Source: Romanomermis culicivorax (taxonomy: Eukaryota; Nematoda; Enoplea; Mermithida; Mermithidae). From it: DNA of 64,000 nucleotides. The stretch's first letter is position 1. The number at the start of each line of letters is the position of its first letter. The position numbers and the translations under genes are program-made. The notes below the pieces were generated by a model. That model was not told where the DNA came from and ran no database searches. It was given only the letters and a program-made list of their open reading frames with translations. Location of the stretch: assembly GCA_963922205.1 (NCBI GenBank), contig CAWUHX010000280.1, positions 186,001-250,000 of the forward strand. Reading direction: 5' to 3'. Below, piece after piece: positions 11,801 through 55,317 of the stretch.

Positions 11801-13040
11801 ACATTTTCTTTCTGCCATGCCATAGATATGATGTTTCAATGCTTTTCTCTTCTTTATGTACACATGCACAATAGACTTCATCATGAATTGAACCAACCGA
11901 ATAGAAATCCCATAACTAAACAAGAATGCAACATCAAAGGCTTAACTACTTTTCTATTTGATGTTCAACATCGGACCGATGTTATCTGGTATTATTGAAT
12001 TCAGGGTTGTTGTTCAATCGTTTTACAGTTTAGGTGAAACTTTTTATTAAACTTGCTTTTATTCTGTGTTAACCTGTACAGACGATGTTTCAACACCTTT
12101 GTTTTGTTTATATACTGTGAAAAATTAAAATAAATAGGATTTGAGCACACCAAACAGGAGAATAACATCAACGATTTAACAGCTGTTCTATCATCTGCCT
12201 ATTTTGGCATTTGCCACTTATAAAATCTTGAAAAAATTTATCTGACCTAGCGGTTGTTCAACAATTTTACACTTTGCACTAAATTTTTTTTCAAGACATT
12301 TCATGACTTTTGCAAAGTCAATATAAGTTTATGTTTGCTCAAATAAGAGTAATAAATTTTTAGTTTTTAGATTACAGTCAACTATATTTTTGAATAAGAA
12401 GTGCATTTATTCTTTTTCTTGCAGTAGATATGATGTTACACATGTTTTTGCACCTTTATATACATGTGGCCGAAATTGCCACATTAGTATTTGAAAGTAC
12501 AAAACAGGATTGTTGTCGATTTAATGACTGTTCTATCCAAAAATGAAATTGAATTGTTTTCCTAACCATTCCTGCATTGAAACCTGGAGGTTGTTCAAAC
12601 GTTTTGCAGTTTAACAAACATCGAAATGCATTTATTGCATTTTAGACGTTTTTCAATAGACACGCTTCTATTCTGTGTTAACCTGTACATTTGATGTTTC
12701 AACACTTCCCTCTTGTTTATTTACATGTGAGGGAAAAAGCCTCATTAGGATATGAACAAACCAAGGAGGACAAAGAGGAATATAAAGTCATCGATTTAAT
12801 GACTGTTCTACCATATATTGACGAACACAAACCCAAATCAACCTCATGGTTGTTCATTCCTTTTACACCTTTCACTAACTTCATTTTTATGCCAGCATTT
12901 ATTCTATGTTCTCCCCAAGACATGGTGTTTAATTGCTTTACTCATGGTTCTGGTTTCAATTTCGGAAATGGTATCCCTGCTATAAAGATTAATATCATGA
13001 TTTCCAGGAGTATTCAAGCTGGCTTTACCTGTAAATAATA
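8870..13040. repeat. Degenerate tandem array, about 12 units
   Basis: Roughly a dozen diverged copies of one unit lie head to tail, with starts marked by GATGTTTCAAC-like blocks near 8939, 9705, 10588, 10810, 11037, 11279, 11829, 12084, 12431, 12692 and 12922. The closest-spaced units are about 225-260 bp apart; others carry inserted sequence. The conserved order within a unit is ATGTTTCAACA, TTTATATACATGTG, CATTAGGATTTGAAC, AAACAGGATTAT, GATTTAACGACTGTTCTATC, CCTGG-AGTTGTTCAA, TTTTGCAGTTTAGG and TTTATTCTGTGTTAACC. Two units contain a palindromic insert; the one at 9427-9478 has ATATCCACCGA and TCGGTGGATAT arms. Short open frames in the array are by-products of the repeat. No coding function is supported. 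Confidence 0.75.
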
Positions 13041-13731
13041 CTAGCAGAATAGTACACAACAACAATAGATGAAATTTAGACATATTGCATTCAGCAAAAA
13101 AACTTCAGTATTAGATTTTTGTAGAACTTCAGTTTGCATAATGACATAACCATGGACACAAATATGATCCTTTAAAGCTTTTTATGCATAAAAATCATCT
13201 TCATCTGAGAAGGAAACTAGGACAAGAAAATTAATTTAGTTTCATAGTTGTAAATTTTTTTTCAAACTCCCTGGATTCAACATACAGTTTGATATATTGA
13301 ATGGTATGGCAGTAATCACTAGAAAAAATATCTAGAAGCATAATTGCAGATCAGCCTTTGGAACTTTGCTCCCTTGTCTGGAGTTTCCAAACATATTGCA
13401 TAGGCGAGGTCTTATAGCAAAAGCCACATGTTCTGCCTGTTGATAGAATATTAGCAGGAAAACCAACTCTGATCAAAATGGGAAGGAACACTTCACTAAA
13501 GTTCTTATTGTTTAGTCTGGAATTATTAATGCACTCATTCCACTTACCATTGAAGTTTGAGAACATTTTAATATATGTCAAAATAAATTGAGTTGAAAAA
13601 ACCATGTCAATTTATGGTCATGTGTTATTCATCTTTTTTCTTTTTAAAATACAGCCACGTTTAGTATCGCATCGCTTATATGTGAACTCTGCCCACAGAT
13701 GTGAATAGTCGATTGATGTGTGTATAGAATG

Positions 13732-13852
13732 CACACAAATGCAAATGCAAATGCAAATGCATGCAAATGTAAATGCACACAAATGCAAATGAAAATGCAC
13801 ACAAATGCAAATGCAAAGGGAAATGCATGCAAATGCAAATGTATGCAAAAAC
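13732..13852. repeat. ATGCAAAT-rich microsatellite, copy A
   Basis: Irregular tandem of AAATGC hexamers interrupted by CACAC and ATGC, giving many overlapping ATGCAAAT octamers. The alternating Cys/His/Phe-rich frames on the minus strand are translations of the repeat, not a zinc-finger gene. Confidence 0.85.
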
Positions 13853-13907
13853 AAGTAAGGGTCTTTGCATTCAACTCCAACAGGCATTTTCCTAGCAAAA
13901 GTTTTCA

Positions 13908-14471
13908 ATGATGTGTGATAACAAATACGTAATACAATGGGCAAAAATTAAAATGTTAGAATTTTTTTATGATATTCTTCAGGTGTACTTTGATCAGACC
14001 ATGTATCATTGCATGGAAACTGATACGGATAGCATTTATTTAGCCTTATCATGTGCAAACTTATTAGATGCAGTTAAGCCTGACCTGAAGGAGAAATACT
14101 TAAAAGATGTTTACCCACTTTGGTTTGTAACAAAAAATGATGACAAAAGAACCCCAGGATTACTAAAGGTTGAGTGGCAGGGCACAGCTATGTGTTGTCT
14201 GGCCGCAAAAACGTATATGGGCATTGGGGAAAGTGAAAAAAATAAGGTCTGTTGCAAAGGATTGATGAAAAAACTTAATAACCCAACTTTCGACCAATAT
14301 TTGACTGTCCTTGAAACGAAGCATCCCCATAAGGGGGAAAATATTGGCTTCAGGATGCAGAAGGATCATAAAATGTGGACGTATGTCCAGAAGAAGCAAG
14401 GACTACCCTACTTGTACATTAAACGTAAAGTGTTAGATGACAGAATAACAACAGTTCCACTGGACTTATGA
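13908..14471 (+). pseudogene. DNA polymerase B C-terminal fragment, Polinton/Maverick-like
   Basis: An open frame of about 187 codons ends with TGA at 14471. It contains the polymerase motif C core YHCMETDTDSIYLAL (the YxDTDS-type metal-binding aspartates are intact), then PGLLKVEWQG, KTYMGIG, KGLMKK and IGFRMQKDHKMWTYVQ, ending in KRKVLDDRITTVPLDL. That order matches the C-terminal third of protein-primed family B DNA polymerases from Polinton/Maverick elements and related invertebrate elements. The exonuclease domain and motifs A and B are absent upstream, where the ATGCAAAT repeat begins, so this is a truncated copy. The homologous place in copy B lacks it (junction near 50215). Codon-level integrity over 180 residues suggests a fairly recent arrival or recent truncation. 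Confidence 0.7.
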
Positions 14472-15550
14472 CTATAATATTTTATTCATTTTTCCTTTTT
14501 TTCGTTTTATTTGTTTTTTTATTATATTATAGCATTTATTCATCTTTTTATTTTGCTTCTACAATGTAGAAGTCATTATTTTTTTTATTTTTCTTTTTAT
14601 ATTTATTTATCATTTTTATGTGTTTGTATTTCTCCATTTTTATGTGTTTGTATTTGTCTTGCTTCTGCTAAGCAGGAGTAGTGCTTCTACAGGGTACTAG
14701 GTGCTTGGTGAGGAGCCAATGACGGCCTAGGGTCAGGTAGAAGCCAGCAGTGCAATGGCGCTAGGTGCATGGTGAGAAAGCCAATGACGGCCTAGAGTTG
14801 GGCACTGCGAGTCATACAAATGTATGGCGGGTATATCCTGTAAAAAGGGGTATACTTGGCGTCACATATGTACCCGCCTCCACGTGGCTGATGCTGGGAC
14901 TGACCCCAAAAAGGTCAGTGCTAAGGGGTACATAACAACTACTATAACATACATTCACACACAACAATGTAAAAACATTAACATTGAACATATAAGTAGC
15001 AGAATGAACTTTGAGCTATGTAGAAGCCATATGAATAAAAAAAAAACGGCTTAAGTAGTGGTTGAACAAATAAATGGCAAACAAAAAAATAAGCTAGTCT
15101 TTAGACTACGTGTTTATGGTGATCAAAAAAGAAAAGCATAGAAATGATGCTAATGTGCATCGTGGTTTGTTTTTTACATGTATTTCGGCTAAGGATCTAG
15201 AAAAATTTTTGAGGACGGGATGAATTTTAAAAAAAAAGTTGTTTATTGGTTGCTACATGGAAAAAGTGGTGCACTACGTGTACTTTTCTAGACCAAGTAT
15301 GATGACGTACTTGGTCCAATTGAATAAAAAAACCAATTGTAAATAAAGAAAAAATTAGCCAACTGATGATGTCATACTTTGGGTTGAAACAATAAAAAGT
15401 TTCAGCTAGATTAGATTATGACGCAATGCGTGGACCAACATTTTCAGTGCTTTGGTCCACGAGTATTTCCCTGTGTATTATCGGCCTATCTTTAACACGT
15501 CTTGGTCCAAAAAATACCCCTAAGGGGGGGGGGGTCGCTTTACTACTACT
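14472..15550. other. Sequence behind the PolB fragment
   Basis: T-rich tract (14480-14650), then a near-duplicate pair (about 14694-14730 and 14758-14796) sharing CTAGGTGC, TGGTGAG and GCCAATGACGGCCTAG, then AT-rich sequence with a G-run at 15528. All of it is missing from copy B, so it probably belongs to the same inserted or deleted block as the polymerase fragment. No gene recognised. Confidence 0.5.
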
Positions 15551-16409
15551 CGTCTCTAAATTTTGGCCGAAAATACTATCAGGGATCTGAAACATAAATG
15601 AAAAGATTAAACAGCAGCAATTGCGGAAACTCTCCTTAGTGGTTTTGTATCCCCATGGAAAAAACAAAAATTTTCATTACTTTGGAATTTTCCCAATGTT
15701 ATGTTATCCATACAATTTTACACCAACTTTGTTTTACAATGTTCAATACTGAAGAATTTTCTGTGCTAGAGTATGATCATTGATATGACTCATGAGTAAT
15801 GAGATTATCAGCATTCTTTCCATATACTTTTGAATTTTTCAGACATTGCCATCAGTGCCTCGAGGCTCGCTGCCATTAATCCCAAAGATGGCATACTGTA
15901 GTTCACCTAATAATAAAGTATCTTTTCTGCTGCAAATAAGTCCATTAAATAACTGCAGTTTCAGTTACATCATTGTTTAACTTGATTTTCAGCAAAGTCA
16001 TTTTGTAGAGGATGCAAAGAAAGTATAAAGAATAGGCATATAATTTAATTTTAAATGAATTTTAATGGATTTCATCCATCAAAAATGCAGAATTCAGAAA
16101 AAAAATTGGTGTCTACTTAGCAGGAGATGTTATGCAATATAAAACTACATTGGTTTTTTATAAGTAGCAAAAACTCAGAAAATTCAACTTCATAATATAA
16201 GCATACAGAATGATATAGCACGGATGTTTACAACAACATAGACTGTCAAATACTATCAATGGATCATTCAACAATGTGATTTTCAATTGAAAATGATTGA
16301 TTCTAATAGATACCTGCAAAAAGTGTTCCAATAACACACGAATTTCAATCAAAAAAAATCCCAAATGAATTATATGTACTAGATTACTCAATTGGTGTCC
16401 TTGATAAAT

Positions 16410-16959
16410 TGTTGTAGTGTGTTTCCGCGGATTTTATTCACTTTTGTCAAACCACGCATGAGGCCCGCAGGTAGCAAATGGAGTGAGCAACGTGGACCAT
16501 CAACAGTCGTCTTACTGTAGTGCACGTCGGTACGCATGAGCTGGCTTTCTTTTTGTCTATTATTATTCGTGTATGTTTTTCTTATTGAACGTGTGCCCCG
16601 CTGGCCACTTTATATTTACTCGCCGCCTCCCCGCACGCACATATTTATTTGCTTTTCTTCCCAGTGCGGGGGAGTGATTCCTCTGTATTTTCTAGCCCCG
16701 TCTCGCTTGTAAGTAAGTGCTTTTTGATATTGTAAGATAAAACTAGAAAAGGTCTTTCCTTTCCGCTTTATATTTAATTAGGGAGATGATTAAGGAAACA
16801 TCTTTTCCTTAATTGGTGGGGTAATTAGTGTTGGGTTTAAGTACAATTAATTAAGTTAATCGGGTAAGTGTGGGCGTGGGGAAACGTACATTAAGGACGA
16901 ATCCTGGGATCCCAATCCTGCCTGAGACTCAAGGCCCCGACTTATTCCAAAATACAACA
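16410..16959 (+). mobile_element. Solo LTR, Ty3/gypsy-type (copy A only)
   Basis: 550 bp starting TGTTGTAGTGTG and ending AATACAACA, flanked by the 4-bp target duplication AAAT (16406-16409 and 16960-16963). The same place in copy B (near 51602) is empty, which fixes the ends. It is in the family of the 5' LTR of the minus-strand element at 47093-47647, sharing CGTCTTACTGTAG, GGGAGA-GATTAAGGAA, AATCGGGTAAG and ACATTAAGGACGAA blocks. Confidence 0.9.
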
Positions 16960-17689
16960 AAATGATGTTTTTTGGGCGAGCAATACTAGTGTTTTTCTGC
17001 TAGACAATCCACTCACACTAGTGGGCGCTTCTGTACACTAACGCCATCCCTACAAACATAATGACCTAACTCTTAGGGATGTTTCCAGCTAAAAATTTCA
17101 CAGTAAGAACTCTATGTAAACGATTTTGATGATAATACTAATTTGTGTCACTTTTTTATTTGAAAGCATTTTATAAAAACAGACTGTAGTTCATGTTGTG
17201 CACTTATTTCGTTAGCTTAAAGAAGGATAATGGTTCGAGCCCCCACCATATGCCTTTTTTCTATTTCACTTCCACATCGTGTGACCAAATAATTCTTTTG
17301 ATATGCAGCATCCAAACCAAAAATCCACTTTGGAAAATCTAGCTGATCAGTATGTGACTGTGGTCTGCTGAAACGACCTGATAGGCCAATTTTAATGCTT
17401 TGGCTTTGGAATGTGATTGTGGAAAGCAGTGATATTGGATTTTGCTTCACTCAATAGATGTAATTGTATAAGTTGCTTATGGACAAGCTGCAGATGCACA
17501 TTTGGGCAAAAGTAAAATGTTCGTGACAACAAATCCACCTCAAAGATTTATCTTCAATGTTCAAGAGATGTTCTTTAGCATACAACAATTGTTCAATTGA
17601 CTGAATATCAGACAGTTTTTCCATATATGTTTGATATGGTATTTTGTGTAAAAATCTGATCACTCTGTCTGCATAAAAATCCGAGAATT

Positions 17690-20600
17690 CTTTATCCGAA
17701 TCACATCGAGTTGATCAGGAAGTATAAAAAGAAGCAGATCAATGGTGCTTTTGATTGAAATTCGATGCAGAGCAGTTGCTGGATACCGTTTGCAGTGATC
17801 TGATGTATGAAAATTTTTGATTTAGATCGGATCAAGTTGATTAGGAAGTAAGAAATTAATATGTCAGCAGTTGTTTTTGCTGAAATTCGATACAGAGCAA
17901 TTGCTGGGTATTGTTTTTAGTGTGATCTGATGTCTGCAATTTTTTGATCTAGATCGGATCAAGTTGATCAGGAAGTATGAAAATTAGTAGATCAATGGTT
18001 GTTTTAGATGAAATTTGATGCAGAGAAGTTGCTGGACATGGTTTTCAGTGTGATCTGATGTCTGCAACTTTTTGATCTAGATCGAATAAAGTTGATCTGG
18101 AAGTACAAAAAGCAGCAGATCAATGGTTGTTTTTGATGAAATTCAATGCAGATCAGTGGCTGGGTATTATTTTCAGTGGGATCTGATGTCTGCAAATTTT
18201 TGATCCAGATCGAATAAAGTTGATCCGGAAATATAAAAAGCAGCAGATCAATAATTGTTTTCGATGAAATTCAATGCAGATCAGTTGCTGGGTATTATTT
18301 TCAGTGGGATCTGATGTCTGAAAATTTTTGATCCAGATCGAATAAAGTTGACCCGGAAGTATAAAAAGCAGCAGATCAAGTGTTGTTTTTGATCAAATTC
18401 AATGCAGATCGGTTGCTGGGTATTATTTTCAGTGGGATCTGATGTCTGCAAATTTTTGATCCAGATCGAATAAAGTTGATCCGGAAATATAAAAAGCAGC
18501 AGATCAATAATTGTTTTCGATGAAATTCAATGCAGATCAGTTGCTGGGCATTATTTTCAGTGGGATCTGATGTCTGCAAATTTTTGATCCAGATCGAATA
18601 AAGTTGACCCGGAAGTATAAAAAGCAGCAGATCAATGGTTGTTTTTGATCAAATTCAATGCAGATCAGTTGCTGGGTATTATTTTCAGTGGGATTTGATG
18701 TCTGCAAATTTTTGATCCAGATCGGATCAAGTTGATCAGGAAGTATGAAAATCAGCAGATCAATGGTTGTTTTAGATGAAATTCAATGCAGATCAGTTGC
18801 TGGGTATTATTTTCAGTGGGATCTGATGTCTGCAAATTTTTGATCCAGATCGAATAAAGTTGACCCGGAAGTATAAAAAGCAGCAGATCAATGGTTGTTT
18901 TTGATCAAATTCAATGCAGATCGGTTGCTGGGTATTATTTTCAGTGGGATCTGATGTCTGCAAATTTTTGATCCAGATCGAATAAAGTTGATCCATAAAT
19001 ATAAAAAGCAGCAGATCAATGGTTGTTTTCGATGAAATTTAATGCAGATCAGTTGCTGGGTATTATTTTCAGTGGGATCTGATGTCTGCAAATTTTTGAT
19101 CCAGATTGAATAAAGTTGACCCGGAAGTATAAAAAGCAGCAGATCAATGGTTGTTTTTGATCAAATTCAATGCAGATCAGTTGCTGGGTATTATTTTCAG
19201 TGGGATCTGATGTCTGCAAATTTTTGGTCCAGATCGGATCAAGTTGATCAGGAAGTATGAAAATTAGTAGATCAATGGTTGTTTTAGATGAAATTTGATG
19301 CAGAGAAGTTGCTGGACATGGTTTTCAGTGTGATCTGATGTCTGCAACTTTTTGATCTAGATCGAATAAAGTTGATCTGGAAGTACAAAAAGCAGCAGAT
19401 CAATGGTTGTTTTTGATGAAATTCAATGCAGATCAGTGGCTGGGTATTATTTTCAGTGGGATCTGATGTCTGCAAATTTTTGATCCAGATCGAATAAAGT
19501 TGATCCGGAAATATAAAAAGCAGCAGATCAATAATTGTTTTCGATGAAATTCAATGCAGATCAGTTGCTGGGTATTATTTTCAGTGGGATCTGATGTCTG
19601 AAAATTTTTGATCCAGATCGAATAAAGTTGACCCGGAAGTATAAAAAGCAGCAGATCAAGTGTTGTTTTTGATCAAATTCAATGCAGATCGGTTGCTGGG
19701 TATTATTTTCAGTGGGATCTGATGTCTGCAAATTTTTGATCCAGATCGAATAAAGTTGATCCGGAAATATAAAAAGCAGCAGATCAATAATTGTTTTCGA
19801 TGAAATTCAATGCAGATCAGTTGCTGGGCATTATTTTCAGTGGGATCTGATGTCTGCAAATTTTTGATCCAGATCGAATAAAGTTGACCCGGAAGTATAA
19901 AAAGCAGCAGATCAATGGTTGTTTTTGATCAAATTCAATGCAGATCAGTTGCTGGGTATTATTTTCAGTGGGATTTGATGTCTGCAAATTTTTGATCCAG
20001 ATCGGATCAAGTTGATCAGGAAGTATGAAAATCAGCAGATCAATGGTTGTTTTAGATGAAATTCAATGCAGATCAGTTGCTGGGTATTATTTTCAGTGGG
20101 ATCTGATGTCTGCAAATTTTTGATCCAGATCGAATAAAGTTGACCCGGAAGTATAAAAAGCAGCAGATCAATGGTTGTTTTTGATCAAATTCAATGCAGA
20201 TCGGTTGCTGGGTATTATTTTCAGTGGGATCTGATGTCTGCAAATTTTTGATCCAGATCGAATAAAGTTGATCCATAAATATAAAAAGCAGCAGATCAAT
20301 GGTTGTTTTCGATGAAATTTAATGCAGATCAGTTGCTGGGTATTATTTTCAGTGGGATCTGATGTCTGCAAATTTTTGATCCAGATTGAATAAAGTTGAC
20401 CCGGAAGTATAAAAAGCAGCAGATCAATGGTTGTTTTTGATCAAATTCAATGCAGATCAGTTGCTGGGTATTATTTTCAGTGGGATCTGATGTCTGCAAA
20501 TTTTTGGTCCAGATCGGATCAAGTTGATCAGGAAGTATGAAAATCAGCAGATCAATGGTTGTTTTAGATGAAATTTGATGCAGAGGAGTTGCTGGACATG

Positions 20601-21065
20601 GTTTTCAGTGTGATCTGATGTCTGCAACTTTTTGATCTAGATCGAATAAAGTTGATCTGGAAGTACAAAAAGCAGCAGATCAATGGTTGATTTTGATGAA
20701 GATCAATGCAGATCAGTTGCTGGGTATTATTTTCAGTGGGATCTGATGTCTGCAAATTTTTGATCCAGATCGAATAAAGTTGATCCGGAAGTATAAAAAG
20801 CAGCAGATCAATGATTGTTCATGATGAAATTCAATGCAGATCAGTTGCTGGGTATTATTTTCAGTGTGATCTGACGTCTGCAAATTTTTGATCTAGATCG
20901 AATAAAGTTGATCAGGAAGTATAAAAACTAACACATCAATAGTTGTTTTTGATGAAATTTGATTGATTCAGAGCAGTTGATGGTTATTGTTTGCAGTGTG
21001 ATCTGATGTCTGTAAATTTTTGATCTAGATCGAATAAAGTTGATCAGGGAGTATAAAAATTAGCA
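17690..21065. repeat. 128-bp satellite with 1,280-bp higher-order repeat
   Basis: About 26 head-to-tail monomers with a 128-bp period; each has GATCTGATGTCTGCAAATTT, GATCCAGATCGAATAAAG, AGCAGATCAATGG and CAGATCAGTTGCTGGG segments. Between about 17956 and 20515 a block of ten monomers (1,280 bp) is present twice, apparently almost without differences, and a diverged third copy starts near 20520. Minus-strand frames of 60-67 codons repeat with the array and are not genes. The array abuts the reverse transcriptase fragment at 21066. Copy B has only four to five monomers (52220-52775). Confidence 0.92.
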
Positions 21066-21835
21066 GGAAACGTGTGATTCTTTTCGACTTTAGACTTAAA
21101 AGCGGGGTTTTGGCAAGTCCCTCTAGACATCGCTTCACCCGATAAAATGACTTTCATCAGCTGACAAGGCTTTTTCCAATTCAAAGTTTTGCCTTTCGGT
21201 TTGAAAAACGCTCCCACCCAATTACAGAAACTGATGGAACAGATTCTACATCCATAAATCTGGAGAATCTGTCTCGTCTACCTCAATGATATAATAGTCT
21301 TTTTGCAACCATATAACAATCATCTAGAGCATATTACATTGATTTTTCAAGCTCTCTGTGATGTTATTCTAATGTTGTGACTCGATAAATGCAAATTCAT
21401 ACCAAAACGGGTAAAATTTTTCGGCCATCTGTTGAGCAAAAGGATATGAAATACAAAATAAAAGAAGAACATCTAGCAGCTTTTGATCAGATGAAAACAG
21501 CCTTAACTTTCACACCTTTTTTGCGACATCCCATCCATGATAAAAAAAAATCAAAATTCATTATTCAGACTGATGCTAGCAGGACTGCTATTGGTGCAAT
21601 TTTGTATCAGGAAAATGAAAACGATCAGTGGGTAATCACATACAACAGTAGAGCCTTGTCCGATGTTGAAACTTGTTACAGTATGACTGAAAACAGGTGT
21701 CTCACTATTGTAGAAGCTTTTCGCTGGTATAGACACTATGTCTATGGTCAAAAGGTAATGGTCAGAACTGATTATGAACCTCTGCAATGGATTAAAGAAG
21801 AAAGACATCGAAATTCACGGCCTCAGAACATTGCT

Positions 21836-22394
21836 TGTTGTAGTGTGTTTCCGCCGATTTTGCTATATTTTGTTGTTTTTGTCGTTTCACGCATGAGGCC
21901 CGCAAGTGCCAAGTGGAGCGAGCAATGCGGACCATCAACAGCCGTCTTACTGTAGTGCATGTCGGTATGCATGTGTTGGCTCTCTCTCTCTCTCTGATGG
22001 TATGTAAAAAATTGTTTTTATATCATACGTTCAGCCTTGGTTTTTATATCGTACTCGCTGCCTCCCCGCACACTGATTTTCATTGTCTTTTCTCGGTAGT
22101 GCGTGGGAGTGAATCTTTGTGCTCTCGCCCAGCCCGGTTTTGTTAGTAAGTCTTTTTATTGCGTAAAGGTAAAATTTTAAGAAAGGTTTCCTTTCTTGCG
22201 TTTATTTCAATTTGGGAGACAAGTTAAGGAAGCATCTTTCCTTAATTTGTAGGGTAATTAGTGTCGGATTTAAGTACATTTACTCAACCTAATCGGGTAA
22301 GCATGGGCGTGGGAAATACATACATTAAGGACGAACCCTGGGATCCCACTCCTGCCTGACTCATCAAGCACTGACCTAGCATCAAAATACAACA
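21836..22394 (+). mobile_element. Solo LTR nested in gypsy RNase H (shared with copy B)
   Basis: 559 bp, TGTTGTAG...ATACAACA, with target duplication TGCT (21832-21835 and 22395-22398). Skipping it restores a continuous RNase H-to-linker reading frame. The same insertion with the same target duplication occurs in copy B (53544-54100), so it predates the segmental duplication. Confidence 0.93.
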
Positions 22395-23301
22395 TGCTAT
22401 AATACTTCAAGACTACAACTATCGCGTTAAATATAGAAAATGGAAAGAAGACACTTGTGCTGACTTTCTGTCACGAAACGAAACTCGTTCTAAACCGAAA
22501 TTGATGTCTAAAGAAGAAGCGGTAGACGAAATATTTAGACCGACATTTTGTGAACAGAAGAAAATCGTTGAGGTCCTGATGACTAGATTGATGACTCGAA
22601 AAGAAGAAGAAAATGGCAAACTTCCTTCTCAGGACAACCTGCCTACAGTCGAAAATGATTTCCAACAACCGGAAAAACCTGCTCGAAACGTCCAAAGAAA
22701 TTCGTGAAGCACAGAAGAATGATCCATATATTCTGAAACTTCTAAAAATTCTGAAGAAAAATTTTCTCTGCATTCCATACCAAAAATGAAATACTGTACA
22801 AAACTTCAACACAAGCTAATACAGCTTCGGCAATAGCAGTTCAGACTACTCTAATTGAAAGCAGTTTGTATCAATTTCATGGTGCGAAAATTTTGAGTCA
22901 TCAGGGTCATTCCCACTATTGCGATAATCTGACAACATTTCTGGTGGCTGAAAATAGAAGAATCGATCGTTAAATGGATAAAAACGTGTAAAGTTTGTCA
23001 ACAAACAACTTCTCAGTTGCTAAAACCACCTCTTCTTTTGCCGATTCAGCCGAAATATCCATTTCAAATTGTCACGACCAACATTGTAAATATTTCTCCT
23101 CTCCATGAGAAAAGGTCGTACTTCATAGTTTCTCAAGACTATTTCACCAAATGGGTAAGCACTCATTTGATCCTGGATCAGAAAGCAGCCAAACATCATC
23201 AGAAGTTTCGTAAATAATGCAATTTTGGTTTGTTGAGAGTGGCCCAAGCAGCCACCTCAACTACGAATTGTTGCAAAAAAAAAGAGAGCGCCTTTCTTGC
23301 T

Positions 23302-23374
23302 GCTTGGTTGGCGCAGTTGGTTAGAGCGTGCGGACGGTAGCCACAAGGTCCTGGGTTCAAGTCCCAGACCAAGC
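23302..23374 (+). tRNA. tRNA-like sequence (Thr-GGT-like) in LTR1 of the TRIM
   Basis: A 73-nt cloverleaf: acceptor stem GCTTGGT/ACCAAGC (7 of 7 pairs), D arm GCGC/GAGC (one mismatch), anticodon arm TGCGG/CCACA (one C-A mismatch) with loop ACGGTAG, T arm CTGGG/CCCAG with loop TTCAAGT. The A box (TGGCGCAGTTGG) and B box (GGTTCAAGTCC) match pol III consensus, and TTTT lies six bases downstream (23380-23383). The anticodon position would read GGT, but position 33 is C instead of T, so it is probably not a working translation tRNA. It is LTR-embedded, not a free tRNA gene. Confidence 0.6.
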
Positions 23375-23530
23375 TCAACTTTTACTGAAGCCCCGAGTAG
23401 CGGGAAAAGGTTGCCTCAACACTGATGGCCCTTGACGGTCCGTCAAACTCGACGGTGGAGGGATGTTGAGAGTGGCCAAAGCAGCCACCTCAACTACGGA
23501 TTGTTGCATAAAGAGAACACCTTTCCTGTT

Positions 23531-23603
23531 GCTGGGTTGGCTCAGTTGATTAGAGCATGCGGACGGTAGCTGCAAGGTCCTGGGTTCAAGTCCCAGACGG
23601 AGC
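23531..23603 (+). tRNA. tRNA-like sequence in LTR2 of the TRIM, degenerate
   Basis: Partner of the LTR1 sequence. The acceptor stem GCTGGGT/ACGGAGC pairs at five of seven positions, the D stem GCTC/GAGC is perfect, the anticodon stem TGCGG/CTGCA pairs fully (one G-T), and the T arm is intact. B box GGTTCAAGTCC and terminator TTTT (23609-23612) are kept. Mismatches in one LTR are paired in the other, so the ancestor was likely a full cloverleaf. Confidence 0.5.
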
Positions 23604-24259
23604 CTAACTTTTACTGAAGCCCCGAGTAGCAGGAAAAGGTTGCCTCAACAGGTTCACAGAAACTCAAAATACCTGCTATCAGACAAGGGTGCAGGTTTCA
23701 CCTCGAATTTGATGAAATATATCAGGAATCTCTTGAAAGTCAGAAAAATCAACACTACTGCATATTACCCACAATGTAACAGCATGGTCGAAGGATTTAA
23801 TCAAACGTTGATTTCACAATGAAAGAAATTCACGGCCAATGATCCCGATAACTTGGAAAGATATTTGCCTTTTGCCACATTTATAATGCTCTACCTCACA
23901 CAGCTACTCACTTTTCTCCCTTTCATGTTTTGCCAGGGTACAAACTCAGAATCACTATTGATTTCGATTGCACAAAAAAATCTAACGTTTCTGCTGAACT
24001 ACAATGCCTATCAACATATCCTCACTCAGGCACAACTAATGTTGTAAAGTAAAAATTTGGAAAATTTGAAAAATGCTGCAAAATCGAATAAACGTTTTAC
24101 AGAAAAGAAAAAAAAAGAATATTAACAATCTAGTGCTGCTAATTAACAGTGAAAAATGGACAAGAATCGATAAAGACTTCATTGGACATTTCGTAGTTAT
24201 GCAAAACTCCAACATTTAGGGAAACGTTATTACAATAAATATTAAACTTCATTTATACA

Positions 24260-25520
24260 CTTTGGAAAACTTTGAAATTTCGAAAATTCTTATATTTTAA
24301 TACATAATTTTGAGAATTTTAGAATTTCACAAAATCTTTGAAAAACTCAGGATTCGAAATTTTGAAACATTTGGACATTTCATTTAATTTTGGAAAAAAT
24401 CTATGAAAATTTAAAATTGAAAAAAAAAATTTAAACTGTAGAAAAATTGGATGTTTTAAACAATATTCGGAAAAACTCATTTTAAAATATTTTAAGTTTT
24501 TGGAATGTAGGATAATTTTCAAAATTTTTGAAGGGAAAATTTTGCATTCAAAAGATCGAACTCTTCAATAAATTTGGAATTTTAAAAAACTTATTAACTC
24601 TGCAGTATATTAGACAACGAAACTCGGATTTCGAAAAGTTAAAAATTTCGAAAAAAAATTTTCATTCCAAGAATTCAAAAATTAAAATTTCAAAAATTTG
24701 AAAAATCTAAAATTCGAAAAATTTGATCAATTGGAAAAATTTGAAACATAAAAAATTTGAACAACTTCAGATTTGAAAAGTTTGAGATTTGAAAAATCTA
24801 AAAATCGAAAAATTTGATCAATTGGAAAAATTTAAAACATAAAAAATTTGAACAACTTCAGATTTGAAAAGTTTGAGATTTGAAAATTTTAAAATTCAAA
24901 AAATTTAAGATTTGAAAATTTCAAAATTTGAAAAATTTGAAATATTTTAAATTTGAAAATTTTGAAATTTCAAAAATTTAAAGTTTGGAAAATTTGAAAT
25001 TTCGAAAATATAAAATTTCCAGAGTTTGAAAATTTAGAATTTTGACACATTTGAAGAATTAAAAATTTCAAAAATTTGAAAATTTGAGAATTTCGGAAAA
25101 TTTAAAATTTTAAATTCATAACATTAAAAATTTGAAAATTGAAAAAGTTGAATAAATTAAAACTTTAAAAATTTCAAAAATGTAAAACTTCAAAAATTCG
25201 AAAAATATAAAATCTCAAAAATTTAAAAAATTTTAAAAATTTGAGATTTGAAAATTTTAAAATTTAAAAAATTTAAGATTTGAAAATTTTAAAATTTGAC
25301 AAATTTCAAAAATTAAAAATTTCAATAATTTGAAAATGAGAAAATTTCGAAGAATTTAAAGTTTTAAATTCAGAAGATGAAAAATTTAAAATTGAAAAAG
25401 TTGAATAAATTAAAACTCCAAAAATTTCAAACTTCAGAAATTTGAAAATTGAAAAATTTCAAAAGTTTAAAATTTCAAAAGTTTCAAAAATTTAAAATTT
25501 CAAGAATCTGGCAAAATTTT
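24260..25520. repeat. AAATTTGAAA-type low-complexity tract, copy A
   Basis: About 1.25 kb made almost wholly of short permutations of AAAATTTGAAA, AAAATTTCAAA and TTTAAAATTT. It begins right after the integrase remnant and matches 56600-57870 in copy B with scattered differences. No reading frame of interest. Confidence 0.85.
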
Positions 25521-26988
25521 TTTTTATAAAGTTACAAATTTTGCCATGCTTTTCAAGGGGGAAACATTCGATATGGTAAATTTTGAGAATTCAGAAACTT
25601 GGTATGCTGGTAAAGCAATAAGACAATAATAAAAGATGCGCACTGCTCTCTGCCGAATCCAAACTACAGTAATTACATTTGAATGGTCCACAAAGGCTGG
25701 TTCAATGCACACTCACAGGCAACTTCTAACAGTTGCAAAATTATTAAGCACCACAACACACGATTAATATAAATAGCACTCATGAACAATTTATCCGCTG
25801 TTGTTGAAACCAATTAATAAAAAAATACATTTCATAGAACAGAAAGCATGCCAAAAAATAAGTCCAAATATCCACAGACTCAAAGTAGTAATGCAAAATT
25901 TCCAACAATTAAATGGTAAACAAAAACAGTGCAATAGAAACAAAAAGCCGGACTACTTTTTGAGACCTTTTTTGTGATAAGAGTATCATGGAATTTAAAT
26001 TTTTTTGCGTTTTTAGACCTACAATTGAAATAACATAAGATAATAGATAACATAACCGTAACAAATTGATGTAAAAACTAGTGGCATCCAGAAAATGACA
26101 ATTGATGTGGTTAGCGCGATTTTGAACATATTGACCAGCATCTGAGAACAAAAATATCAAATTATCAAAAAAAAAGTCTAAAAAATGTTTTTAACATTGC
26201 AAACGTTAACACGCAATATTTACTGTGATATTCACTTGCTGGAATTCAATCAATTATTTAATATTACACGAGCGGCATTTGGCTACACTGGAAAGTTGAT
26301 TGATGAGGGAGAAATTCAAAGAACTAAATATTTGGCATAGTTAATATTTTTTACGAATTAGGAGACTACTATAAAACAAGTTTACTTTACTCTCTTCATT
26401 TAACATGAGTCTATGGCTCTGATTTCATTACAATGAAAATAGAAAATAGAATAGCAAATAGAAACTTACTCAAAGATATAACATACACATACTCAATATA
26501 TTCAAGTGTCAAATTTTTTCTATGATCAGACAAAATAAATTTGTACAACAAATAAGAGTGCTCACTGTAAGCAGATACCAAAGGTGCATACAAAGTTTTA
26601 AAAAAATTTCACGGGTTTTTTTCAGTCAAAAACAAAAGTAAACTTTTCTCCTGCACATCAGTCCAAGCTTTGTTCTGCACCTGTGAATATCTTCCATTGT
26701 TATTGCTTTTTGGACAATGAGCTTCTAAATTGAAGTTAACTTGACAAAAGTTAAATTCTATCAGTAAATGATAAAACATGCTTATTCTCTAAATTTTGAG
26801 CGAAATTGCATTTTTAGCTGCAAATTTTAAAAAAATTCCAAATTAGGTGCAAACAGGTCTCAGAATCCCAAAAAGCTGCAGGAAAGTGCAATCAGCATGC
26901 ATACAGTAATACCAGGAGGACTTCATTTTGTCATTTTAATGCTTCTTGAGCATCCTCAATTTAAAAAAATGTTAGATTCAGCACCTGA

Positions 26989-27837
26989 AAATCGGGTATC
27001 TACCCACGATCTACTATGCACTGGATGGAGCTCAATTGTGAAGCTTTGGTGGTCCTGCTTACTGCAGTATTTTTTTGTACATTTGGAAATGTAACAAATT
27101 GCATTGGTTTACTGGGTGCAAATTTTCACTTAGCTGTAATGCATCAATTTTGCCTGATTTACTGAGACGGCTTTTTCTTAAAAAATTAGCTTCAACACAT
27201 TCCATTATTATAACATAGGTTTTTTTGCAAACTGATTTTTTTTTGAGTGGCAGTTTGATAGATTGAAGTTTGCTCAGCTTTAGACTAGGATGAATCTACA
27301 GATAGATGTAATTGGGGGGAGAATACAATAAGAACTACCCTAGAAATTGTTGCCTATATGGGTAGCCATTAGATGATCCCACTACAGGATTTGTATGTCA
27401 TATGGCTAGCCGTATAGTTGTCCTAATCACAATATTGGAAGGTGTCAACTTTGCGAACAAATACTCATTTTTGAGTAGAAAATGCTCTAAAATGTAACTT
27501 TTTGGAATCTTTGCAGTTTTTGCAAAAAATAAACAACAATTTTTTCTACAATTTCCCTTACACTTTTAGTTGAAAAATCAATTTTTTTCCTCCTGGGTGC
27601 TTTACCCCTAAAATTGCGGACAATCAAGCACTCATTGTTCCTTGGTTTATTACACTGTCCAGCACACTGCTATTGTTTACTTACCTGTTGGGCACAATTA
27701 AAGACAATGTGTATGGTAATGTCCATGAAACCCATGACAATGACTATCGACATGGAAGTAGTAGGGCTAAATGGTTGCACAAACTATGGCTTGACATGCA
27801 CGACCTTTTCCAATGCAGAAGCACAGCCTAGGTAGAC
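26989..27837 (+). pseudogene. Tetraspanin-like membrane protein exons, copy A
   Basis: Two segments in a shared context. The first (open from 26989, ATG at 27025, stop 27163-27165) has a hydrophobic helix LVVLLTAVFFCTFGN then CIGLLGANFHLAVMHQF, resembling tetraspanin TM2 with its G-x-L-G-A cytosolic turn. The second (about 27590-27832) has the helix IVPWFITLSSTLLLFTYLL then DNVYGNV and WLHKLWLDMHDLFQC, which resembles TM3 running into the large extracellular loop. The ATG in front of the second segment in copy B is ATT here. The duplication ends inside this second segment (27822), so the copy-A 3' end is foreign sequence reading to a TAG. Tetraspanin identity is a guess from pattern; it could be another small membrane protein. 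Confidence 0.35.
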
Positions 27838-29947: not shown

Positions 29948-30392
29948 GGCTTATCTGACCTGGCTTTCATGGAGTAGGAGTCGCTTGTATTCAGACTGAG
30001 GTTTTGCCTAACTAACATACGAAATTAAAGGCCGTCTCATTTTAGGGACACAACATTTTGCATTTATGTGCTTATATATGAGTTCAAAATGCTCCATTGG
30101 TCTTCAATTTTTCATGAACACGCATACGTAAATGCAACTAGATTACTGTAGGTAGGAAATCTGATGTCAATCAACAAGAGATTGTTCTAGAAACTGGGAA
30201 ATATTTCTGATTGGCCAACAGAGCTAAAATAATGCTGCTCAGATGCCAAAACTCTAATTATTTAAATATTATAATTTGAGGAGAAAATTATCTAATACGT
30301 GATTTCTCAATTATCATAAAAACCAGCTCACACCTCGATATTCTTATCTAAAAACACGCAATTTGTCAGTATTGCATAATTTATCTCTTGTC
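29948..30392. other. Upstream region of the 7TM gene
   Basis: AT-rich sequence with no repeat recognised. It would contain the promoter or a 5' non-coding exon of the receptor gene, but I cannot identify a TATA box or initiator with confidence. Confidence 0.3.
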
Positions 30393-33300
30393 ATGCAGAA
30401 CCAAGTTGATAGTCGATTACCATGCATTTATTTCTGTTATCTATTCCTTCATTTACTCTTATGGGGCATTAGCATTTGTGGCATTCTTGGCCACTCATTT
30501 CGACTTCGGAAGCTCTTCTTAGCCAGAGCAGACCATCGCCCAGCGAAAAACTTTTTCTTAGCTTTAATGCTAATTTCCAGTTTGCTACTTTGCTTCATCA
30601 ATACACTTGATATATTTGTGGTCATCTTCCAAAATGAGTTCTCCGTCCAGTGGCTTTCCATGCTGGAGAGTTTGTCCATCTTTTTGGTCATGTACTCCCA
30701 AGTTTTAACAGCATTCTACAAAGTCGTTCATATCAAATCATACCATGTTGAACCCCTAGGCTTAACTTCTTCAATGTCAATGGTCTTCATCATGGGTTTC
30801 ATTGCTGCGATGATACACATCATTTTTGTTTGTGTTGAAAAAGTAAGTATGAATAATTACAGTAAGATGACAGCCATACTGAAAAGAAAATCAAGACCTT
30901 GGAGGAAAGATTCAAAATTGTCCAAGTTCTCTGAGAAATTTATTTCTACGAGCACAATTTTTGCTGGTGAAAAAAGCGAGCCAAAGGGTTCTTGCCTAAA
31001 ATGATGTTCGGAAAATACATACCATATAATCATTTGCCTCCCAGAATCTACCTGGCCACTAGAGATGGAATGGATCCAGGATTTCCAATGTTCTGGATAC
31101 TGAACCAGGTCCAGGGATTCAGTTCCGGATCAGGGGCCTCCATTCGATTCCGGGTCTGGGTAATTGGAAATGAGCATCACAGTTCCAGATTAGAGTAATC
31201 AGCTCCACTAGAAATTTATCTATATCTGGGTACACATGAATAATATCTGCTGTGTAGTCAGCTGCACAAGTTCAGGGTTGTAGATTACTGTAACAAATCG
31301 CATCATGAAATTTTCAATGGTGAACGAATTAAACTTATATAATGCAATGTTGTGGATATTAATGAGAAACGTAATCCTCATTCAAGTCTAATCTATATCA
31401 TCTTTTTTGTGAAAAACCGTACTCTATGATTCCCAGAGTATTGCTAATACAATTTGATATAATAATTTAGAGTTAATTATAACAACAATGCCTTCAAATA
31501 CTATTTTGGAATATTCTGAAAGGTAAGATGATGATAATGCTGTTTGCAAGGCATGCAGAGAAAATGCTGGTAAAAATTGCAATTTCAGCTTCAAAAGGAA
31601 ACATTGGAACTTTAAACAAGAATTTAAAAGCAATTTACCCAAAATTGATGGTGAAATGAAAATAAAAATGCATGCCCACAAAACTGATGCAGGTGAAAAA
31701 GCTTCAACAATTAGTTATCTTACGCGGATTAATTTGCTGCTCACTTTTTGGTAGTTTCAGTGACCAGTGTTGCTTCAGGGCGGATGTTCAGTGGTGCTGT
31801 CATTGTTTACTCAAGAAAAAGAAAGTGATTATCTAGTGATAATAATGAAAAATCTTCGCTTTAGAGATACAATTCACCAGAAATTGTTTTTAAATATTAA
31901 CACTCTTACTATCAGTCCAATAAAATAAATGTTCAGATCCTTACCTTATAACGTGACCTTAGGGTCAACATATACTTTTAGTCTGAGAGTACATTTCCAC
32001 CTAATTAGTATCAGTAATGTTTAAATTGCATGTGGGATTATCCAGATGGGGATATAGATAGTACAAATGGGTTGTTTTTCATCCTATTTCAGGTAATCGG
32101 AAAAGCTTCCTCTGGATCCAGATTCAGATCCTGGAAAATTCCAGGTAAAATCCAGGAAAATTCCAGTAAAAAAAGAAAGTCATGCTCCAGACATACTAAA
32201 ATCTGCCTTCCTTTTGAAAAGGTGATCTTGAAACTTTGAACTATATAAAATCCGTGCCTGATGCTCAGACCTAAAAACACCACTGAATTAAACAACTTAG
32301 ACGAATTAGATCCTGGTTTTATTCATAGAAACCATCCATATTAACAGGACAAAATGATTAGCTTGAGGCCTCTCGCAGAAGATTCACTAAAAATTAACAT
32401 ATAGCCCATCAAAGGCATAACCGAACTTAGCTATAGAATTCAAAGTTCTGTGAACATTACAGATGATGGATACTGACCCAAAAAACAAGCACTTTTCAGG
32501 AGTCTTGTGCATCTTTGTAGTCATGTCATGCTTCTAGAAATGAAACCGAAAGTCAAACACAGTTTTCCATCTCTGACAGCTTTTCCTGAATAAATCACCA
32601 CACAAATCTATGAACTCAGAACAAGCTCACTCAACATTCTATGGCAATTCCTATATCAACGAAAGATAAAAGTTAAGTTGCGAACAGTGAGACATCTATG
32701 AAACTGAATTAGCTTCCCATACGACAAAAAAGGCATAGAAAATTCTAAATCCAAATATGCAAATTAAGTAAATTGCAAATATGATATCATTATACTTTTT
32801 CCCAGCAAAACAAGGTAAACACTCTTCTAGAAATTGGGAAAATTGGTTGATTAGGATTTTTTCAGGCTAGTGAAGCTCTGATTGGTGCGTCAATAAATAG
32901 ATAACAGCAAACAAAATTTAATAGAAATCCCCAAAAAAATATGTGAGCATTATAATTCGACTGAATTTACTTCATTATTGCGTAATAGCTGATCATAAAA
33001 AATGAGCTCGATTCCACAAACTCACTTAATGAAGCCTTGTCTTTGTCATTGAACGTTCCAGTGTTAAGGTAATGGAACTCCTAAACAGTGAAAAAACATG
33101 GATGCCAAGGTCCTGCATTTTGTCAATTTTTTGGCCCAACCGAACCAAACTTTGGTCAACTTCTGACTCAGCCCGAATACAAAGCCACAGGAATCAAACC
33201 ATACCTAGTCCTAAACCCAAGTCATTATTTGAAATGAGAGCCAACCCAAATGAAAACTTCCTCAAACATTTTTAAAACAAAAACAGCATTTTTATTTCAA

Positions 33301-42322: not shown

Positions 42323-43189
42323 TAGGGGATAAGACATTAGAGTAAATCGGATTACTGTATATAATTTTATTGGTGATATATTTTCTCGAGTATATCTGGT
42401 TTTTTTGTCTGGTTGATGGCCTGTACATTTTTCCCAAGTACTTTGTTTTGAACATTCTCGTACCAAAAATTCATTGGTAACCCAATTAAGAATTGATGCA
42501 TAATAATTCTGCACATCTGCACCTGGTCCTATAACCCACTCGAGTCACATGAAGATGCACATTCCCAAGACATACAGTATCCCCCCAGAGGCCTAAAACA
42601 CCTGCTAGTGTAGAAAATGCAAAAACTCCAACCCAGACGAAAGGTTCAGGTAGAACACATAGAAAACAGTAAAACACAGGAAAAACTAAAAAACATGTAG
42701 GTGTGGCTAAGCATATGTTAAACTAAAGCCTGTAGGCGTGAAAGTTGAGCATGAATTAAAGTACAAAGGCATGGTAATAAAAACATACAGTAAAGGATAG
42801 CATGTAAAGCAAAGCAACCATTGGTTAAGAAAGCAAAACAGAAGCGGACCTCCCATGGCCTGAAGGCGTGGTCTAAAGAAGCAGTATAGGAGAAAGAACA
42901 CAGTGAAATCCGTAGAGTTGTTTGGTATTTGTTTTAATAGCCACATGTGAAAGCTTAGTTAGAGTATTCATATTACCACTGATGCCAATTGTAAGCAGTC
43001 CGTGGTATTGTATTTTGGTTCTTTCATCAAAATTGTAGTCAAATTTTCGACATTACATTCATGCCAAGGGTGTGATGGTGCTTATCACAGTGAGCGACCA
43101 CTGACCTGACTGGTCACTTGATCCTTGAATATTGCACAGCTTATCACAGACTTGCTTCTATGAATAATTCCTGATTTATTCAAACATTT
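42323..43189. other. No gene recognised
   Basis: Sequence between the hairpin repeat and the broken end of the minus-strand integrase. A 102-codon minus frame at 42206-42514 overlaps the repeat and has no recognised motif. No 3' LTR of the minus-strand element is visible here. Confidence 0.4.
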
Positions 43190-43751
43190 GACCATTCGGC
43201 TGCACTGGGGATGATACGCCGTTGTTTTGACTCTTCGTATTTTGAGTAGGTCGCAAATATCCTGCATGAGCTTTGACGTGAAGCATCCACCTTGATTGTA
43301 AAGAAGAAGTGGGCTACCATGTGTGAGGACGACATTGTTCACGAAGCATTCAGCGAAGGTAGACGCCTTTTGATCGGGTATAGGATGTACGGAGACCCAT
43401 TTCGTAAAGTAATCCTGAAAAACAATAACGTATGGACGTTTCTCACCTAGCGGTGATATGTTGACAATATCGGTTGCCAGGATCTCCAAGGGGTGCTTGG
43501 GCTGGATCGGCAACAGTGGTGGAGGCGGGGATGTGTGGGGGGGTTGTCAATTGACAAATCTTGCTGGACTTGATCCAGTCGCGGACGTTCTCTTCCATGT
43601 GGGGCCACCAAAAATAAGCTTTGATGGCTGCTAGTGTGCAGCTTGATCCTTGGTGATTCAAAATTTTTGCACCGTCGAATTGGTGTAACGTCTGATCAAC
43701 CATGGATGCCGGGATGACCAATTGTTTGATATCTTTGATTTGTTGATACAA
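43190..43751 (-). pseudogene. Ty3/gypsy integrase remnant
   Basis: Minus-strand continuation of the element whose 5' LTR is at 47093-47647. The H2C2-type zinc region is visible ([13 protein letters not shown] then [14 protein letters not shown] and ICQL), followed after a frameshift near 43480 by the catalytic core: [16 protein letters not shown] keeps the first aspartate, [11 protein letters not shown] has N where the second aspartate belongs, and MVKCLN has K in place of the catalytic glutamate. Homology stops near 43190, before the C-terminal domain. It cannot be catalytically active. Confidence 0.85.
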
Positions 43752-43799
43752 AAGTCTGTCTTCTGTGAAGAAAATTGACGGGCCCTTTGCGGCATTGTG

Positions 43800-45085
43800 A
43801 ATTTGGAGAGAGATGAGGATCGCGGTGATGGCTGGATCAGCAGCCTGTGCTCGTGATACTTTGTCCTAGGAGGCGATTGTTATGGCTTCGACTGGAGGCG
43901 GCGCATAATTGGCCACCAATGGTATGGAATCGGAGAGTGTGGGTTGATTGATGGTCTATTTGGTCATAGCCCGAGTGATGGTGTTGACATCCCTGTTGAT
44001 TTTCTTGGGTGGCGAGACCGCTGCTGGGAGCATATCCGATACTGTTAAGTTCGGGTCCGATAATGCACCATCAGGGGGAAAATTTTTTGCGAAAATTTCG
44101 GTGGATAGATCTTCAGTGCTCGGGATTGGTTGTTTCTCGCATTCATCTTTTCTGGACAAGAAATCGGCACAAGCATTGTCTTTGCCTTTGAGGTATTCAA
44201 CTTTGTAGTCATAATCTTGAAGGTTTATTGCAAAACGTTGGAGGTGTTAATTTTGGTGCTCTTCATCTTTGAGCCATTAGAGGGGCTTGTGGTCAGTGCG
44301 AACAATAACTTTTTGGCTGTAAACATAATGGCGGTACATCCTGAAGCCATAGACAATGGTGAGGCACTCAGGCCCTGTTGTACTGTATCGGGTTTCGGCA
44401 TTGGTGAGTATGCGGCTGTTGTAGGCGATGACCCATTGATCGTTTCCGTTTTCCTGGTACAAAATTGCTCCAATGGCAGTCGTACTGGCGTGGGTTTGGA
44501 TGACAAATTGAGCTTTACTGTCTTACACCCGATAGCAAAGGAAGGGCAATGACGTGAGAGCTTTCTTGATACCTTCAAACGCAGCATGGTGTTCGTCCAT
44601 GGGGATATATTGAGCATCTTTCTGTAGGAGTCTGTACAAAGGACTGGACAAGGTTGCCAATTCTTGGATTACGATGTTTGCCAAATCTTGGATTACGATG
44701 TAATTTCCCTTGAAGTTTAAGATCGTGTGGATATCAGGGTGGGCGAGAAAATCAGTGCCAATGATACATTGATCATTTCTGTCATCCTCGAGGTTTACCC
44801 ACTTGATCATGTGTTCACCAAACACAGATTGCATCGTAACAACTACCGGATCATGGGCATTGACAATGGCGCCATCGGCTACTTTGATTTTACCACAGAT
44901 CGGGAGTTGGAGCAATTGTGTGTCGAAAGCACATTTGACTAACCCTGAAGACAATACGGAGCATTGGGCACCAGTGTCGATGAGCGCATGTGCCTTGACG
45001 GCGCCAAGTTTGATGGGAATTTGGAAAGCTGGGGTGGAAGCCTATTTGCAGATGAAAGTCTTTGATGACGGCGTGAGATTGTCAA
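43800..45085 (-). pseudogene. Protease fused in frame to RNase H (no reverse transcriptase)
   Basis: An aspartic protease starts with ALIDTGAQCSVLSS (44960-45000) and continues to IGTDFLAHPDI and ILNFKGNYIVIQ. The frame then passes straight into the start of the RNase H region (LSSPLYRLLQKDAQ, HHAAFEGIKKAL), so the whole reverse transcriptase, normally over 200 residues, is missing. The junction is a perfect-length 24-bp tandem duplication (44654-44677 and 44678-44701, one mismatch; IVIQDLAN/IVIQELAT). A stop follows at about 44523. RNase H resumes in the same frame with QTHASTTAIGAI (catalytic D of TDAS is H), then QWVIAYNSR and VRTDHKPL, ending with a CADFLSRKDE linker. Confidence 0.85.
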
Positions 45086-46818
45086 TCTAGCAAATGGAGG
45101 AACGGATGTAACAAGGATCTTGGAAGGCATGGCCGATTGCGATTCCAACAAATGATCCTGGGGCTCACGATCCGTGCAGCGGACGCTATTTCTTCAGAAG
45201 GAATGACCATGTTGGCCATGGAAATTGATTGATTGAGCACGCGCGGATCGAGAGTGGTCGCGGACACAGTAGCGGATGATGGCAAAGCCAGTAGGGCCAG
45301 CTGGAGTTCCAAGGACTGAGAACTGGCATATGAGGAATCTGTGGGCATTGTAACGTATGGGGCTGGCACGGCATTATAGTGAATGTGTTGTTCCCATGGC
45401 GCCAGAAAATGTTGATTCGGGTAGATGGCATAGATGTTCTGAACAAAATCATTTGGGCGGTTTACTGGATTACCTTCATAAAAATAATTCCTTGTGCCAC
45501 GGGAGTAATTTGAACTTCTCTGGGGCGGTGCTCTGTGGCGTGGTCTCCAATCGCCTTGGCCAGGGATATTGTTAGAATTGATCCGAAAATTGGTTTGCGG
45601 CGGTTGAGTGGCGTGGTCTAGAGGATTGTAATCTTGCCGATTGGTTTGTTGAGCATTTTGTCCCTTGAGCCAGATGCAATCTTCGGTATTGTGGGTGCGG
45701 GACTTATGAGCATCACACCAAAGGCCTGTCAATTGCGGGATGTGGAGGCCGTTGCAACTTGCTGATGGGTCAAAGCAGTTGGCGTAAGTCTGTCGGGGTT
45801 GGGATTGGTGACGAGGGCTTTGTGGCTGGGTATTGGATGAAAATTCTTCGGGACGTTGCCATGACTTTCGTTCTTCATGGTCGCGGTCGTATTGTTGGAT
45901 CAATTGCTCCAGTAGCATTTCTGTGCGCAGTTGGGACTGCGGTGGTTGTTCTAGCAGTTGCGGTAGAAAAGAGACGAATTTATTGGGTGGCGGCGCTGAA
46001 TTTAGCGGGTGGCGATCAGTTGAAAGTGTGCGGTCGCAATAGCAGTCCTGTGATTGGTCCGTGCTGGGGGGACGGTCAAAATGGCACTTAAACGGCTGCG
46101 GGGACCTTGGTGGCTGCGTTTCGGGGTCGGTGTGGTTGAGCAGTATAGGCCGTTCCCCAGTTCAGATTTCAGCTTTAGTTGCATTGAGGACCCTACGAGC
46201 TTTGGCAACAGCATTAACCAATTGTTGAACATTTGTAAAACTTTTCGCTTGCTCTCAGATTGTTAATTGGTAGAAAACAGGCATTTTTGTCAAAAATGTG
46301 TCAATTACTTGTTTGTGCCGAAAAGTTTAATCCTCATCTTGATGTACCAATTGCACATAAGTCATTACCTTACTCAAAAATGCAGTGGGTTCCTCTCAGA
46401 CTTCAGGGGTGATTGACGCGAGCTCAGGATTGAGAGTCATTTGGTTGCAATCTGGTGCTAATTGGGACATGAGGAAATTTTTTGCATCTTCATAGCCTGT
46501 CATATCTTGAATCATGTCACTCGGCGTATTGCGGGTAAGTTGGCAGAGTGCACTCATCTTGATGTGGTTGGAGGCGTCATATCCGAACTCGTTTTCTAAG
46601 CGAATGAAAATGCGTAGGAGGGGTTTGTTTGTCTGGGCTCCGTTGATAGTTAGTGGGTGCATATTGTCGACAATGGTTTTGATTCGACTATCTTCTTTGT
46701 GGTGAGACGTGCATGGCAATTTGTACCCCAGTTGCGGGTGATCATAATAGTCCTTGGGCGGGTAGTCCGAGAAACCAAATGGATTGGCCGTCGGCTTACC
46801 GTGGGTACCGCTGATCAT
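45082..46818 (-). pseudogene. Ty3/gypsy gag remnant
   Basis: First ATG at 46818; the first frame runs 140 codons (to 46396) with a capsid-like segment (IDTF-type helices follow in the next frame, around 46380-46200). The last frame (45918-45082, 278 codons) is Q/N/P-rich and contains a zinc knuckle-like motif [15 protein letters not shown] (C-x2-H-x4-H-x4-C), typical of the nucleocapsid part of many Ty3/gypsy elements. At least two frame changes separate these pieces. The protease frame overlaps the 3' end. Confidence 0.75.
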
Positions 46819-50007: not shown

Positions 50008-50103
50008 CACACAAATGCAAATGCAAATGGAAATGCATGCAAATGTAAATGCACACAAATGCAAATGCAAATGCATGCAAAGGCAAATGCATGTGAATGT
50101 ATG
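50008..50103. repeat. ATGCAAAT-rich microsatellite, copy B
   Basis: Shorter relative of 13732-13852: ACAAATGCAAATGC units with ATGCATGC interruptions. Confidence 0.8.
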
Positions 50104-55257: not shown

Positions 55258-55317
55258 CATGAGAAACGGTCGTAGTTCATAGTTTCTCAAGACTATTTCA
55301 CTCACCAAATGGGTAAG

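Follow-up and report, generated by a model that had tools for sequence, protein, structure and literature searches.

We analysed a 64-kb stretch of contig CAWUHX010000280.1 (the whole of which is called the window here) and found that positions 23231-23650 very probably hold a single full-length Helenus-type terminal-repeat retrotransposon in miniature (TRIM) of the TRIMp3 kind: a non-autonomous, gene-free long terminal repeat (LTR) retrotransposon whose LTRs carry a tRNA-derived internal promoter for RNA polymerase III (pol III). The element measures 420 bp and reads, on the forward strand, as LTR1 (191 bp, 23231-23421, TGTTGAG...CTCAACA), an internal region of 42 bp (23422-23463) and LTR2 (187 bp, 23464-23650). 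The two LTRs stand in direct orientation, have TG...CA termini and both close in CTCAACA; they differ at 18 of 187 aligned bases (9.6%) and by one 4-base gap. The open frames that cross the element, 89 and 90 codons long between stops, are of the kind that arises by chance and give no sign of a gene. A short element with two direct LTRs, TG...CA ends and no coding capacity is a TRIM by description.

The flanks of the element show how it arrived. It is bordered by a 4-bp target site duplication (TSD), GGTT, at 23227-23230 on the left and, identically, at 23651-23654 on the right. At 55987-55990, in a duplicated copy of the surrounding region, GGTT occurs once and no insert is present. Together, the TSD and the empty site in a paralogous block establish one insertion of the entire 420-bp unit, with a TSD of the length found in animal Helenus families. 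All of these measurements (coordinates, LTR and internal lengths, flanking GGTT, TG...CA direct repeats and the empty site in the duplicate) had been given in a first-pass annotation of the same DNA, and all were reproduced. The empty site comes from a large duplicated block, in which 12949-27816 corresponds to 49225-61027 in direct orientation and with interruptions, the BLASTN segments being 81-95% identical. At the empty site the left-flank match extends for just ~75 bp (55917-55990) and the remaining left flank is found ~1.1 kb off (53937-54820), a split indicating that this copy carries an interruption of its own.

Each LTR contains a tRNA-like sequence with a Thr(GGU) anticodon, at 23302-23375 in LTR1 and 23531-23604 in LTR2 (both forward strand). 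ARAGORN reports just two tRNA-like genes in the whole window, one per LTR and both Thr(GGU), and the tRNA family RF00005 of Rfam (cut-off 29 bits) matches them at 44.6 bits in LTR1 and 38.6 bits in LTR2, with whole-window E-values of 3.1e-6 and 1.4e-4; they are the sole Rfam matches above cut-off there. Two programs thus place tRNA-derived sequence, the defining trait of Helenus, inside both LTRs. The cloverleaves are 74 nt long, one more than the 73 nt first reported, and 19 of 21 stem pairs form in each (counted by eye from the alignments). LTR1 has lost one D-stem and one anticodon-stem pair, both of which are paired in LTR2, and LTR2 has lost two acceptor-stem pairs, both of which are paired in LTR1. 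All four failing pairs are intact in the opposite copy, as had been noticed before, which implies an ancestor with an intact cloverleaf. In animals these threonine codons are normally decoded through an AGU anticodon, not GGU. With this unusual anticodon, and with stem pairs broken in both copies, it is most likely that the cloverleaf survives as a promoter relic and does not work as a tRNA.

Within these units, the B box GGTTCAAGTCC is undamaged in both LTRs (at 23354 and 23583), and a strict A box is undamaged only in LTR1 (at 23309), that of LTR2 having one change in its GG. The window holds one strict A box paired with a B box, the pair in LTR1, and 0 of 20 Markov-resampled windows had such a pair. 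Four bases past each cloverleaf, not six as first described, begins a TTTT on the forward strand that could serve as a pol III terminator (23380-23383 in LTR1 and 23609-23612 in LTR2). No TATA, AATAAA or ATTAAA was found in the element, so there is no sign of ordinary RNA polymerase II (pol II) LTR signals.

The internal region offers candidate priming sites at both of its ends. A polypurine tract (PPT), GGTGGAGGGA, abuts LTR2 at 23454-23463 on the forward strand, where the first-pass annotation had put it; it is not pure, with one T and 9 of 10 purines, and is placed like the PPT of Helenus elements. At the other end, a candidate primer-binding site (PBS; 23423-23438, forward strand) pairs best, among 27 human tRNAs, with the 3' end of tRNA-Ile(AAU), 8 of the first 9 positions agreeing, and tRNA-Ile may be offered as primer by way of suggestion. 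Self-priming by the 3' end of the LTR's own tRNA-like sequence fared worse, with local scores of 5 to 6 compared with 9 for tRNA-Ile. Nor could the PBS be convincingly tied to Gypsy sequence in the window: a single other near match, at 43595-43610, lies in an open frame that matches the zinc-binding domain of integrase, and 1.26 such near matches are expected by chance. The purine tract joined to the LTR start was likewise rejected as a shared feature, with 7 matches at up to 3 mismatches where 3.1 are expected, the sole exact one being the element itself.

A group with these properties has already been described. According to the available text of Kojima 2024 (PMC10886601), Helenus comprises TRIMs whose LTRs include tRNA-derived sequence, and it occurs in fungi, a single plant and six animal phyla; its animal families have 4-bp TSDs and are probably mobilised by Gypsy elements, to which PBS similarity links them; and Helenus, Cassandra and Ajax are united as TRIMp3. 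The same text says of seven bivalve Helenus families that they are able to encode tRNA-Thr, and lists tRNA-Ile among the primers of bivalve families. The present element shares four features with Helenus as presented there, namely LTR/TRIM anatomy, tRNA-derived LTR sequence, a 4-bp TSD and a PPT. It differs in its internal region, which is 42 bp long compared with 85 bp in the Selaginella element given as a short example, and the likeness was judged from these described features. Cassandra, a plant TRIM, likewise has a pol III promoter in both LTRs, but its promoter derives from 5S rRNA rather than from a tRNA, and Ajax, an animal TRIM of nemerteans whose LTRs also hold a small-RNA promoter, differs in its 5S-derived promoter and 5-bp TSDs (PMC10886601, available text). 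The ta-TRIMs of taeniid tapeworms (PMC4558846) are animal TRIMs whose TSDs measure 4 bp in 52 of the 57 Echinococcus multilocularis cases, and have a candidate autonomous helper, lennie, with an identical PBS. In contrast to the present element, a tRNA features there just as the primer (Leu) in the passages covered, 12 of 18 places, the term 'polymerase III' is absent from the text, and the Taenia TSDs are 5 bp long.

The element is therefore a genuine addition to the already described Helenus class. The first-pass annotation had called it a tRNA-based counterpart of Cassandra, a description that suits its TRIM anatomy and the tRNA-like pol III unit in its LTRs, with pol III transcription itself put forward from sequence features; its further remark that it knew of no described animal element of this kind is answered by the six animal phyla of the 2024 report. 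Literature searches on Helenus with TRIM or LTR and on TRIMp3 yielded no report besides PMC10886601 among the matches listed. If the host phylum is not one of those listed, the known range of Helenus becomes wider. The copy is also a clearly readable example, with TSD, empty site and complementary cloverleaf damage in one TRIM with a pol III-type LTR promoter. Such elements can inflate annotated tRNA gene counts, as ARAGORN and Rfam both call these LTRs tRNA genes.

A replication cycle can be proposed for such an element. Pol III would initiate just upstream of the LTR1 cloverleaf, pass the first TTTT and terminate at the TTTT of LTR2, giving a transcript of ~320 nt with a tRNA-like segment at both ends as its repeated (R) region. 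U3 would then cover roughly the initial 65-70 bp of the LTR, with U5 taking up its final 38 bp. A Gypsy helper might provide reverse transcriptase and integrase in trans, with the first strand primed at 23423 by a host tRNA (tRNA-Ile as the best guess) and the second strand primed at the purine tract. An open point of this model is that pol III would have to run past the terminator in LTR1 yet halt at the one in LTR2.

Several observations weigh against a Helenus-type element with a pol III promoter. First, the candidate PBS is weak: its anchored 9-mer score was reached for any tRNA in 77 of 5000 shuffles, and its local-alignment score in 478 of 5000. Second, the A box of LTR2 is damaged, and the two T4 runs are at chance level, resampled sequence of the element's composition containing 2.07 on average. 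Third, a single copy was seen. BLASTN of the element revealed no other copy in the window, and there were no convincing relatives in pattern scans of viral contigs, made with three DNA patterns and one integrase fragment, or in those of genome contigs. Two of the viral-contig DNA patterns and one genome-contig scan gave 0 matches, and the integrase-fragment scan of viral contigs gave 2 pattern matches, neither encoding a relative. The remaining viral-contig and genome-contig scans led to seven loci (L001-L007), all taken as chance, with BLASTN alignments of at most 24 bases in and around the fetching pattern; the best of the seven, L006, aligned over 24 bases at 95.8% (E = 3.9e-5 within that tiny set).

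Fourth, the LTRs may be too divergent. The empty site implies that the insertion is younger than the block duplication, in which case the two LTRs ought to have diverged no further than the block copies. Yet the 18 of 187 differences between the LTRs compare with 238 of 5092 (4.7%) in four adjoining block segments (P = 0.005), and with CpG sites removed the counts are 13 of 169 and 178 of 4869 (P = 0.013). Such an excess is odd if the LTRs were identical at insertion. Its significance depends on the segments compared. For the four segments with a low-complexity stretch omitted, P was 0.018, and 0.029 without CpG sites; adding 21080-22230 to the four gave 315 of 6241 (P = 0.011); and the nearest 423 bases (15 of 423), a post hoc choice made after the data had been seen, gave P = 0.003. 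A smaller first set of flanks gave P = 0.085 (120 of 1942) and, without CpG sites, P = 0.087 (82 of 1802). With eight segments, four more having been added, significance was gone (595 of 8831, P = 0.14; 0.23 without CpG sites), mainly because 15548-17058, which lies in a region with further matches inside the window, differs by 15.5%, compared with 3.9-6.7% in the other seven. Thus, the LTR excess hinges on segment choice. It may reflect template switching that left the LTRs unequal from birth, a higher mutation rate in the element, which is richer in GC, gene conversion acting on the block copies, or chance. A bolder and unlikely version, whose odds fall with the eight-segment result, would see a Helenus lineage in an unlisted animal phylum, with a near-minimal internal region holding a PBS, a PPT and little else, and with LTRs that were unequal at insertion as a result of reverse transcriptase switching between two non-identical pol III transcripts.

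The strongest competitor to a pol III-promoted Helenus element, though in our view quite improbable, is a TRIM transcribed by pol II in which the tRNA-like segment is a passenger from an old SINE (short interspersed nuclear element) insertion into the LTR. The changed A box of LTR2 fits such a passenger, and the available text of PMC10886601 proposes that LTRs of this sort arose by SINE insertion and describes pol III function in Helenus and Ajax as lacking experimental validation. However, the element has none of the pol II signals named above, the B boxes of both LTRs are undamaged, and the published Helenus families conserve the sequence around boxes A and B (PMC10886601, available text). 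A tRNA-derived SINE in dimeric form, or a pair of adjacent SINE insertions that mimic two LTRs, could account for a tRNA head with a B box in each unit and for units that are 9.6% different. Such elements have an A-rich or simple-repeat 3' tail and variable TSDs of the type made by long interspersed nuclear elements. Here, neither unit ends in a tail of this kind, and a single 4-bp TSD surrounds the whole element with a clean empty site; in addition, the units have TG...CA ends with a common CTCAACA terminus, and the purine tract stands exactly at the start of the second unit. The first-pass annotation had named tandem tRNA or SINE dimers among the genomic copies as one outcome that would overturn its proposal, and this copy does not have that form: it is built like a miniature LTR retrotransposon rather than a SINE dimer, and the SINE explanation has very little probability. 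A tRNA pseudogene duplicated locally in tandem, with no mobile element involved, would find some support in Tandem Repeats Finder's reading of 1.8 copies of a 229-bp unit, but is contradicted by the TSD and the empty site, which mark one 420-bp insertion, and is barely credible.

Returning to the Helenus-type element, a predicted hairpin of 32 nt, absent from the first-pass annotation, opens the LTR (23231-23262, forward strand; -16.4 kcal/mol, z = -5.44), and 0 of 200 shuffles were equally stable; its sequence would lie directly 3' of the purine tract in the proposed transcript. The internal region is unremarkable (z = -0.88). A hammerhead ribozyme, as in retrozymes, was rejected, the whole-window Rfam scan showing nothing beyond the two tRNAs, as was an H/ACA small nucleolar RNA match across LTR1, whose 19.2 bits (E = 0.69) fall short of the cut-off of 60.

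The element sits inside a degenerate Gypsy-like integrase region. Degenerate pieces of Gypsy-type pol occur at 21389-21955, 22933-23214, 43085-46161 (reverse strand) and 52786-53336, those at 22933-23214 and 52786-53336 being judged by eye from open frames outside the Pfam scan. That scan covered 10 of the 24 open frames of at least 120 aa in the window, and 4 had matches, all to retrotransposon domains: RNase H, integrase core, integrase zinc-binding and, below the Pfam cut-off, a retropepsin-like domain. Two further open frames had no Pfam match at E 0.01. One, of 191 aa (13896-14471), contains a DTDS motif that we take to recall family B DNA polymerases; the other, of 233 aa (30303-31004), is hydrophobic and by eye looks like part of a multi-pass membrane protein. 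Each copy of the duplicated block also contains one array of a 128-bp tandem unit, with 26.2 copies at 17709-21066 and 4.3 copies at 52226-52774.
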